DNA of 54,700 nt from Patescibacteria group bacterium. Lineage in GTDB: Bacteria > Patescibacteriota > Patescibacteriia > WFTA01 > S139-112. The DNA is taken from NCBI GenBank assembly GCA_015485695.1, contig WFTB01000015.1:1-54700 (forward strand), read 5' to 3'. The translations under genes were made by a program, and so were the position numbers. Below are positions 8,359 through 54,700 of this stretch, piece by piece. Under the pieces are notes generated by a model that had not been told where the DNA came from, ran no database searches, and was given only the letters and a program-made list of their open reading frames with translations. The number at the start of each line of letters is the position of its first letter. Position 1 is the stretch's first letter.

Positions 8359-8398
8359 GGTAATCGTATTGAATAAGATTTTGACCGAACTCAAGCCC

Positions 8399-8461
8399 GC
8401 TTGCCACCGGCAACCGTCCTCGCTTGTTCGATTCCATTATTGTACTGAGCGGGTAGGGGGA
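8399..8461 (-). repeat. Orphan copy of tRNA-Gly 3' end (13 bp) plus tail element; att-like
   Basis: cgcttgccaccggcaaccgtcctcgcttgttcgattccattattgtactgagcgggtaggggga matches 10813-10875 with two adjacent mismatches; the tRNA body is absent. Confidence 0.85.
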
Positions 8462-9096: not shown

Positions 9097-10572
9097 TTAC
9101 TGGTGCAGAAACCGACGATACAAGAAATTGAGACGGTCCGCTTCTTTTCTGTCGCCTCTGCCAATCGCTTCCTGAAACCTCACTTTAAGATTCTCCTTCA
9201 CTTTCGGCACATAAGAAATAAAATATACGCTTCCGTTCTCCGCGACTTGAGCCCCTCTTCTTACATCTCCACCATACTCATCTCTGACATGCCGCACTTC
9301 TTTAATTTGTTCCATTAAATACTTCCGTTTTTGTTCAAGAGACCAGCCGTCTTCCGGATAATACGCATCGTCTTGAAAATCTTCTACAAACCCATTAAAT
9401 GTTTGGATTAAATCATACATATCTACTATGGTAATCAACTTTGTCTTATCATGAATCATGGCAAAAAATACGGTAATATTTGCTTTTTCTGCCTCCTGTG
9501 TCATCTGTTCCAGATTGCTGATATCAAAATCATTCACCCCTTCATCAGAAAGCACAAGCACGGCAGCAGGAGGTTCTTTGTCGCTGTTCCCTCGCCTGCT
9601 TTGAGTTAATCGGTCTATTGCGCTTTGAGCGACATGAAGCTGCCTTTCCTTACTTCCTTTAAACCTCATGCCGTCGACGAATGAACGCACATCATCCGGA
9701 CTCTGTATTCCCTTTTCTCTCGGATCAATTTCATAACTAAACGACGCCATTGTGCAATCATGAGTATTAAAAAAACCGCTATCATTCATAATCTTTTCAA
9801 TCAACTTATCGCGCAATAAAGCAGAATCATCACTCATTGACCCGCTGCGGTCTATCAAAATCCGCAACACGGGAAAGCGGGATATATATTCAACCAATTC
9901 CTCGTATTGCTTTTCTCGTTGCTGTTTTCTGTCGTTCTCAGAAGGTTGGACAATGTCCAAAGAAACAAATCTGCATTTGCCAAACAATTCCTCCCTAATC
10001 TCTTTGGGTAATTTCTCCGCCTCTTCTTCTCTGTAACGCTCTTTTGTATCCGGGTTTATTAAATCTGTAATCGCGGTAACCCCTTTTCCGTAGCGTGGAT
10101 TAACGGGAATATTGGTAATCACTCCAGCATTAAAAAAATCCTTCAGTGAAGGGTTTTTTTGGATAAACAACTCAACCACCTCATGGTAAATCCTTCTCAC
10201 TTCAGCAACCCTCGCTTGCGCTAATCCTTTATTCCCTTCTTCCCAGGTAATTGTTTGTCGCTCATCTGCAGAGGCCGATACGTTCACCCGCAAATGAGAA
10301 AGGGCGTCTTTATCCATCTTCGCAACCTCTTTCTCTAAAAAATAAAACAGTTCTGTTTTGAGTTTTTCTTCTTTCTCAGGGTTCATTTTTGCTTCATTCG
10401 TTGGAAAAGCGTCTGTCATGTCAAAATGAAACAAAAGTTTCTCTCCACTCTCCTTTTCAACATCTCCCTGTTCTGGACCGCACCCAAGCCCAAAACCAAA
10501 AGCAACAGCGCCAAACCCCAACGTCTTCATAAAATCTCTCCTGCTCCACCCTCTTCCTTCGTGATTATTCAT
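9097..10572 (-). CDS. von Willebrand factor A domain protein with Tat-type lipoprotein signal
   Basis: N-terminus GWSRRDFMKTLGFGAVAFGFGLGCG (twin-Arg + lipobox-like LGCG); MIDAS DRSGSMS. Confidence 0.8.
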   Translation of the reverse strand: MNNHEGRGWSRRDFMKTLGFGAVAFGFGLGCGPEQGDVEKESGEKLLFHFDMTDAFPTNEAKMNPEKEEKLKTELFYFLEKEVAKMDKDALSHLRVNVSASADERQTITWEEGNKGLAQARVAEVRRIYHEVVELFIQKNPSLKDFFNAGVITNIPVNPRYGKGVTAITDLINPDTKERYREEEAEKLPKEIREELFGKCRFVSLDIVQPSENDRKQQREKQYEELVEYISRFPVLRILIDRSGSMSDDSALLRDKLIEKIMNDSGFFNTHDCTMASFSYEIDPREKGIQSPDDVRSFVDGMRFKGSKERQLHVAQSAIDRLTQSRRGNSDKEPPAAVLVLSDEGVNDFDISNLEQMTQEAEKANITVFFAMIHDKTKLITIVDMYDLIQTFNGFVEDFQDDAYYPEDGWSLEQKRKYLMEQIKEVRHVRDEYGGDVRRGAQVAENGSVYFISYVPKVKENLKVRFQEAIGRGDRKEADRLNFLYRRFLHQ

Positions 10573-10650
10573 ACTGCTTGTGTTAAGCTAAACCCGGCAC
10601 TGAAAAAACTCTAAAAAAAATCTCTTCAAAAATTTGGTGGGCAATCACTT

Positions 10651-10861
10651 GCCACCGGCAACCGTCCTCGCCCGTTCGATTCCCTCATTAGTACTGAGCG
10701 GAAAGAAGAAATCACCTGGGCTTGCGGTCGCTTGCCACCGGCAACCGTCCTCGCCCGTTCGATTCCCTCATTAGTACTGAGCGGAAAGAAGAAATCACCT
10801 GGGCTTGCGGTCGCTTGCCACCGGCAACCGTCCTCGCCCGTTCGATTCCATTATTGTACTG
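10651..10861 (-). repeat. tRNA-Gly tail element, tandem copies with 83-bp period
   Basis: gccaccggcaaccgtcctcgcccgttcgattcc begins at 10651, 10734 and 10817 (83 bp apart). Confidence 0.9.
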
Positions 10862-10934
10862 AGCGGGTAGGGGGAATCGAACCCCCATCGCCAGCTTGGA
10901 AGGCTGGAGTAATAAGCCATTATACCATACCCGC
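10862..10934 (-). tRNA. tRNA-Gly(TCC)
   Basis: Cloverleaf GCGGGTA...CCAGC CTTCCAA GCTGG...GGGGGTTCGATTCCCCC TACCCGC, discriminator T; no encoded CCA. Confidence 0.95.
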
Positions 10935-24671: not shown

Positions 24672-24745
24672 GCGCCCGTAGCTCAATTGGATAGAGCGTC
24701 TGGCTTCGGACCAGAAGGTTAGGGGTTCGAGTCCCTTCGGGCGTA
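24672..24745 (+). tRNA. tRNA-Arg(TCG)
   Basis: GCGCCCG acceptor, TCTGG CTTCGGA CCAGA anticodon arm, GGGGTTCGAGTCCC T-arm. Confidence 0.95.
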
Positions 24746-24951
24746 CAAGGCACAGCCTTGCTCTTATTGGACTCGAACGGGCGAGGAGTCTTGTTGGGGA
24801 CAAGACACCGCAAGCCCAGGTCCGGAACGGCGAGTCCCTTCGGGCGTACAAGGCACAGCCTTGCTCTTATTGGACTCGAACGGGCGAGGAGTCTTGTTGG
24901 GGACAAGACACCGCAAGCCCAGGTCCGGAACGGCGAGTCCCTTCGGGTTGT
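24729..24951 (+). repeat. tRNA-Arg tail element, two 103-bp tandem copies plus partial third
   Basis: gagtcccttcgggcgtacaaggcacagccttg... begins at 24729 and 24832, partial at 24935; each carries the 3' end of the tRNA gene. Confidence 0.93.
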
Positions 24952-53783: not shown

Positions 53784-54596
53784 TCACAAAGGGCTTTTAA
53801 TGTTTTTTAGTTTTGGATTCGTCACTTGAGTATAAATCTGTGTCGTGCGGATATTCGAGTGCCCCAATAATGCCTGCACATACCGCACGTCTATCCCGTT
53901 TTCGAGCAAGTGCGTTGCAAAAGAGTGTCGCAAGGAGTGGAAAGTTGCGTCTTTTTTAACGCCACTTTTTTTCAGTGCGTTTTGAAAAACTTTTTGAGCT
54001 GTGGAAGCGGTTAATTTTCCACCGCGATTGCTTTCAAAAACAAGACAATTGTTTTTCTTTCCGGCCATTAAATTTTGAAAATCAATTTTTAATTTTTCCG
54101 GGAAAACGGTTATCCTGTCTTTTTTACCTTTGGTGTTTTTAATATGAATTGTCAATTCTTCCAAATTTATATCTTTTACTTTAAGATTAATAATCTCACC
54201 AACTCTCAATCCGGCAGCGTATCCCAAAGAAATCATTAATTTATGCTTGGAATTTTCCATTTGAGAAATAATTTTTTCTATTTCTTTTCTTGATAAAATA
54301 ACTGGCAGTTTTTTGTTCCTCTTGGCGAATTTCAAATCAATTTTTTTAGATGATTTCAAAACTTCTCTGTATAAAAACTTTATGGAATTTAAGGCCAAAT
54401 TAATTGTCTGAGAAGATTGTTTTTTACCTTGTTTCTCCAGAAGATATTTTTCAATCGCCTCGTCTCTGTTTTTTAGATTTTTCTTTTTAGCAAAAACAAG
54501 ATACTCATTCGCATAGTGCAAATAACTTTTTACGGTTCTGGGACTATAACCCTTCAACTTCATTATGTTTTCCATTTTCTTCAAAATTGATTGCAT
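53784..54596 (-). CDS. Tyrosine recombinase/integrase (XerC/D-like)
   Basis: Catalytic motifs GYAAGLRVGEIINL, FHSLRHSFATHLLENG, LGHSNIRTTQIYTQV. Confidence 0.92.
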   Translation of the reverse strand: MQSILKKMENIMKLKGYSPRTVKSYLHYANEYLVFAKKKNLKNRDEAIEKYLLEKQGKKQSSQTINLALNSIKFLYREVLKSSKKIDLKFAKRNKKLPVILSRKEIEKIISQMENSKHKLMISLGYAAGLRVGEIINLKVKDINLEELTIHIKNTKGKKDRITVFPEKLKIDFQNLMAGKKNNCLVFESNRGGKLTASTAQKVFQNALKKSGVKKDATFHSLRHSFATHLLENGIDVRYVQALLGHSNIRTTQIYTQVTNPKLKNIKSPL

Positions 54597-54700
54597 ATTT
54601 TTATATAGTTTGTTACTTTGGAAGTAGATTCCTAGATAACATCATAATTCCGTATAACATACAAATTCCCTCTATTATCAACCACCTACTCCGCATAAAA

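Follow-up and report, generated by a model that had tools for sequence, protein, structure and literature searches.

The tRNA-Gly(TCC) and tRNA-Arg(TCG) genes of this Patescibacteria group bacterium are each followed by a structured tail that carries a complement of its own tRNA's T-arm, and the question raised by this locus is whether such a tail is a functional RNA or a mobile DNA element. The preliminary description of the window (the whole 54.7-kb stretch of DNA analysed) reported, 3' of tRNA-Gly(TCC), flanks shared with the Arg tail, a hairpin and a host-matched anti-T-arm. The sequence is present as given, with all three parts, but the description covered unit 1 alone, whereas the tail is a tandem array. 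According to TRF, the array comprises 83 bp x 2.7 copies at Gly and 103 bp x 2.1 copies at Arg (Table 1). Every tandem unit holds a copy of the 3' end of its own tRNA, diverged in Gly, so that the period consists of the 3' half, the spacer and the element. Besides the T-arm of the tRNA, the anti-T-arm may also pair with the 3'-half copy closing its own unit (Arg GGACTCG..CGAGTCC, Gln GGATTCG..CGAATCC, Gly GGAATC..GATTTC). Of the exact occurrences of TCGAACGGGCGAGGA in the window, three are at Gly and two at Arg, five in all; with up to two mismatches six occurrences were found, as against 0.12 expected by chance. A decayed copy lies 2.4 kb past tRNA-Gly(TCC).

Table 1. Features of the Gly and Arg tails and associated genes in the window
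Feature	Position	Strand	Basis
tRNA-Gly(TCC), intact host	10861..10934	-	ARAGORN; Rfam tRNA 65.9 bits
Anti-T-arm GGAATCGAAC of Gly unit 1, exactly complementary to the host's GTTCGATTCC	10840..10849	-	Sequence
Gly unit 1 body: P1, P2 GGGC/GCCC, hairpin TTGCC-GGT-GGCAA, AGG junction	10790..10850	-	Fold; R1 rank 2 in the window
tRNA-Gly 3' half, diverged copy (GATTTCTTCTTTCCGCTCAGTAC vs GATTCCCCCTACCCGCTCAGTAC)	10774..10796	-	Sequence
Gly unit 2 body	10707..10767	-	R1 rank 1 in the window; TRF array
Gly last unit, truncated; GGGCGA pairs with TTGCCC, then T-rich stretch	10639..10683	-	Sequence
491-aa VWA-domain protein, candidate cargo, between the Gly array and the decayed copy	9097..10572	-	ORF; Pfam VWA 2e-7
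Decayed copy: tRNA-Gly 3' half, spacer and left part of the element	8398..8460	-	Sequence
tRNA-Arg(TCG), intact host	24672..24746	+	ARAGORN
Arg unit 1; anti-T-arm GGACTCGAAC at 24769-24778	24768..24838	+	R1 match
tRNA-Arg 3' half, exact copy (CGAGTCCCTTCGGGCGTAC); overlaps P1 3' strand	24831..24849	+	Sequence, TRF
Arg unit 2	24871..24941	+	R1 match
tRNA-Arg 3' half, second copy, partial (CGAGTCCCTTCGGG)	24934..24947	+	Sequence, TRF
285-aa tyrosine recombinase, candidate enzyme	53787..54641	-	Nearest solved structure V. cholerae IntI4

Four of the 44 tRNAs surveyed in the source genome are followed by the element, at a spacer of 11-24 nt. On contig 31, tRNA-Gly(GCC) carries the same 83-bp unit as tRNA-Gly(TCC), followed by a final copy that has a third hairpin (GACAGTTGGGAGCTGTC), and on contig 6, tRNA-Gln(CTG) carries the anti-T-arm GGATTCGAAC, the exact complement of its own T-arm GTTCGAATCC. 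The variable base of the anti-T-arm in this genome is A, C or T and matches the host every time; since GTTCGANTCC is nearly invariant in tRNAs, this matching taken alone is weak evidence, and its significance comes from the class-wide permutation test given below. A second 3' half of the same tRNA was found downstream of 3 of 44 tRNAs in the source genome and of 11 of 33 in the sister genus, the second genus of the family; upstream, the sister genus had none and the source genome one chance-level match to a neighbouring tRNA-Ser. The 11 copies of the sister genus lie 75-213 nt downstream, begin in the T-loop and have one or two perfect hairpins, unrelated in sequence, before them. Several contigs of the source assembly (C2, C3, C31, C37 and C46) stop a few bases from the 3' end of a tRNA (Gln, Lys, Leu, Ser or Pro), as if longer repeats at tRNA tails had broken the assembly.

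A class-wide scan for orphan tRNA-Gly 3' halves revealed a second family, in which many tRNAs are followed by an anti-T-arm, a structured insert and a 3'-half copy. Seven sequences of this family, all from genera other than the source genus, were used to train the structure model R1; their consensus is a three-way junction, in which 19 of 36 pairs show two-sided changes (0/500 shuffles). The top four R1 matches in the window, with filters off, are the four complete Gly and Arg units, whose individual scores are weak (E 0.11-0.38). At E <= 0.01 the model gave 82 matches in 36 of 384 genomes of the class, a count that includes, by construction, the genomes that supplied R1. A phylum-wide sample added three genomes from one family of another class, all with the element beside tRNAs (Asn, Gln and Leu). 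The Leu case (G555) is a tandem pair of 105 bp x2 and another genome (G213) has a tandem array of 169 bp x3, the units being empty in both. A sequence pattern, CGAGGAN{10,38}ACCGCAAGCCC, was rejected as too loose for genome and viral contigs: among the loci fetched, its tRNA-adjacent matches were in the source genome alone.

At a locus, an intact tRNA is followed by a spacer, mostly of about 40-60 nt, then by an imperfect palindrome and finally by a repeat of that tRNA's 3' half from the T-loop onwards. P1, at the base of the palindrome, is reverse-complementary to the host's T-loop and T-stem and differs from tRNA to tRNA, whereas the body (P2, two hairpins and an AGGA junction) is common to the elements within a genome. 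Palindromes measure about 55-110 nt, and the whole insert, which in most cases carries no gene, is typically 100-200 bp. The hosts are tRNAs of 17 amino-acid types, with many tRNAs occupied per genome; bodies behind different tRNAs of one genome are 81-96% alike, and the conserved body GAAGGGCAG.AGYGA..CTGCCCAGGA is found again in many families as well as in another class. Rfam 15 gave no match above the gathering score other than tRNA, and a literature search found no published description of such a family. In viral contigs, TCGAACGGGCGAGGA had 28 single matches, about the chance level for that amount of sequence, and tighter patterns of the wider family had none.

Of the 73 R1 matches that were examined, 60 have a tRNA on the same strand no more than 400 nt upstream, in most cases at 40-79 nt. 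The remaining 13 comprise four that interrupt the D-loop of a partial 5' copy, with an intact tRNA directly downstream, three near contig ends, the second of a tRNA-Ser pair, and five isolated matches, four of which precede a tRNA-like 3' end; at least one isolated match, in G182, has no trace of a tRNA. Matching was assessed on 67 elements, namely the 60 linked ones and seven others. The 5' strand of P1 agreed with the host T-arm (C56-C63) with a total of 477, as compared with a mean of 412 and a maximum of 431 after permutation; with permutation within genomes the total was 375 (mean 343, maximum 363). The 3' end of the host (positions 62-73) is repeated directly past the element, with 12/12 bases in 41 of 67 cases and a total of 58.75 against a permuted maximum of 42.4. 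P1 varies in length (positions 62-66), and the displaced 3' half mostly stops at the tRNA end, sometimes retaining a CCA that the tRNA has lost. When the tRNA was compared with the downstream copy as partner of the anti-T-arm, the count was 34 to 3; this comparison was discarded, as many windows taken for the copy missed the true one further on and positions 56-58 are constant.

The expectation that copies match the T-arm of their host and adjoin tRNAs holds across about 40 genomes, and the few unmatched or unlinked copies that would speak against it are insertions into a D-loop next to a tRNA, elements at contig edges, decayed loci and loci with a swapped tRNA. The arm at tRNA-His of G228 corresponds to the displaced 3' half instead of the tRNA now present, as would be expected after a later replacement of that gene. 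This locus (L404) is one of three, with L455 in G012 (Tyr) and L487 in G054 (Gln), at which the functional tRNA is unlike the displaced 3' half behind it, which suggests that the tRNA gene was swapped after the insertion. In L463, L468, L500 and L508 (G225, G164, G178) and L476 (G139) the body is placed within the D-loop of an incomplete tRNA copy and has, where P1 would be, an additional GTC..GAC hairpin; in the first four an intact tRNA comes next. Three elements without a tRNA (L479 in G213, L485 in G025, L496 in G011) are adjoined by a -10-like box and then GTTCG, possibly a promoter fused to a T-arm remnant.

The tail might act as a functional RNA within the tRNA transcript, controlling tRNA maturation, the anti-T-arm serving either to sequester the T-arm or to shield the tRNA from the additional 3' half. 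Strong covariation, low folding energies, the complementarity of the anti-T-arm to 10 nt of the tRNA and the short, terminator-free spacers of the source genome would all agree with this. A fold selected as RNA is expected to favour G-T on the transcribed strand, and in the acceptor stems of the same tRNAs, used as a control, G-T indeed outnumbers A-C (31 and 5). The element stems show no such preference of one strand, having 65 G-T and 66 A-C pairs in an R1 alignment that is biased toward its own structure and should therefore, if anything, favour G-U over A-C. This near equality indicates that the fold is maintained as DNA and speaks against a functional RNA. Moreover, 18 of 54 spacers separating tRNA from element contain terminator-like signals, as against 5 of 66 control stretches, the hairpins of the sister genus are unrelated, and a gene lies between two copies in one relative (see below). 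The preliminary description had left the choice between a functional RNA and a mobile element capturing the T-arm of its target. Given the absence of an RNA strand bias and the terminator-like signals in a third of the spacers, the former is disfavoured and appears quite improbable; the latter describes the pattern well, capture being its presumed cause. A caution follows for annotation, as tRNA tails that look like conserved RNA can be DNA elements. A group I intron guide sequence was also considered, since the anti-T-arm is complementary to both flanks of the T-loop junction, and was rejected: an intron core is lacking, and some elements measure only about 60 nt.

At the level of DNA, passive repeat decay without any dedicated mobility could be imagined, in which replication slippage at the T-arm hairpin would give rise to the second 3' half, and the flanking complement would be produced by snap-back synthesis at an unrelated palindrome. 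Such a process requires no enzyme, would explain any target, and fits the variable length of P1, the tandem arrays and the D-loop cases. What makes it unlikely is the body, which recurs in conserved form in many families and in another class and is near-identical behind different tRNAs of one genome, so that copying of the body is needed.

The element may alternatively represent decayed att sites left by ordinary islands that integrate into tRNA genes; the 3' half would then be the classical displaced fragment and the palindrome an attP core. Crossover at the T-loop is a known subsite for such islands, and tandem arrays are known too (PMC4383910). Tyrosine recombinases are present, and the usual end of the displaced half at the tRNA end, with the occasional retained CCA, is in line with this origin. 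As in Islander-type islands, an intact tRNA is accompanied by its own displaced 3' fragment in direct orientation, exact in the 41 cases above. The inserts, however, are mostly short, gene-free and devoid of an internal integrase gene, and one palindrome with host-customised arms serves many tRNAs of the 17 types, whereas islands use one tRNA-specific attP each and one integrase per island; this origin is, accordingly, rather unlikely.

Integron attC sites offer another comparison. Similarities include the short paired outer arms, an unpaired asymmetric spacer (AA opposite AGGAC), a second paired box (P2) and a variable terminal structure, and the consensus fold with its covariation indeed describes a folded single strand with an asymmetric spacer and a variable terminus. 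The length range falls largely inside the 57-142 nt of attC (PMC2727003). Bodies are similar within a genome, a single gene lies between sites in one case, and the source genome has an IntI4-like recombinase. On the other hand, the R''/R' boxes RYYYAAC/GTTRRRY are absent, the arms GGANTCGAA / CGANTCC being those of the host T-arm; the platform is a tRNA gene, at many loci per genome, and not attI; no intI with attI is adjacent, the IntI-like gene lying about 29 kb from the Arg array; and the recombinase, which has no IntI-specific insert, does not track the element, the IntI-like gene being missing from several element-bearing genomes. Since the element departs from attC and from islands in at least one tested defining feature each, it was filed under neither.

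Other short repeats resemble it in part. REP/REPIN sequences (RAYT/TnpA-REP) are likewise short non-coding palindromes with conserved DNA folds, amplified within a genome, whereas the element is tRNA-bound, has a larger three-way-junction body, a host-matched base and a duplicated target, and does not show the GTAG/CGTC tag rule. In E. coli, the rtT tandem repeats past tyrT each contain a piece of the tRNA 3' end, although this is one locus with an unrelated 178-bp unit, in which no T-arm complement is known. Mitochondrial double-hairpin or repetitive hairpin-forming elements are mobile, insert in tandem and maintain their stems under substitution, but they are organellar, and the parts of the account consulted report neither host-matched arms nor duplication of a tRNA 3' half (PMC2800124).

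The tails are probably best regarded as a hitherto undescribed family of palindromic DNA insertions, customised to their targets, in the T-loops, sometimes the D-loops, of tRNA genes, att/attC-like and placed within duplicated tRNA-gene ends. The element looks like a mobile insertion, sometimes gene-carrying, that is re-tailored for each tRNA. The palindrome would act as DNA and be, or have been, a folded recombination or insertion site; insertion into the T-loop with duplication would leave the tRNA intact and let the insertion survive. The complement of the T-arm may be acquired from each target or adapted to it, and the repeats between units might permit both the expansion of arrays and the pick-up of single genes.

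Such a pick-up may be represented at tRNA-Ser of G054, where two near-identical copies 1.3 kb apart, each with an identical spacer and followed by the tRNA-Ser 3' half, enclose a complete eutH (Pfam E 2e-145). The 285-aa candidate enzyme stands between XerA and integron integrases, and aligns to IntI4 in two pieces flanking a stretch that it does not contain. A search of tyrosine recombinases did not separate element-bearing from element-free genomes; IntI-like recombinases are present in the latter, and four of the former (G025, G043, G161, G167) have one Xer-like tyrosine recombinase each. This protein is, therefore, not the general answer.

A more far-reaching proposal, advanced tentatively, is a tRNA-anchored cassette system in which folded single-stranded sites have an arm copied from the tRNA entered, so that nearly any tRNA gene could be a landing and storage platform for individual genes, eutH being an example, and the element family would carry no integrase itself. 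Mobile DNA lands most commonly in tRNA genes; to our knowledge, the known elements have one fixed arm and one tRNA, unlike near-identical bodies behind many tRNAs, each with a host-matched arm. Rewriting of the arm on arrival, if true, would imply an unknown insertion chemistry, and the system could provide bacteria with tiny genomes with a gene-cassette platform outside classical integrons.

At least two further types of insert on a T-arm-matched base were observed in G167 (L424, L428, L417, L422, L388): type B, CGCCGGAGCG..GAGGCGAAGCC, and type C, a long AT stem followed by GGCTGCGAAGGAG. At some of these loci two inserts stand in a row.
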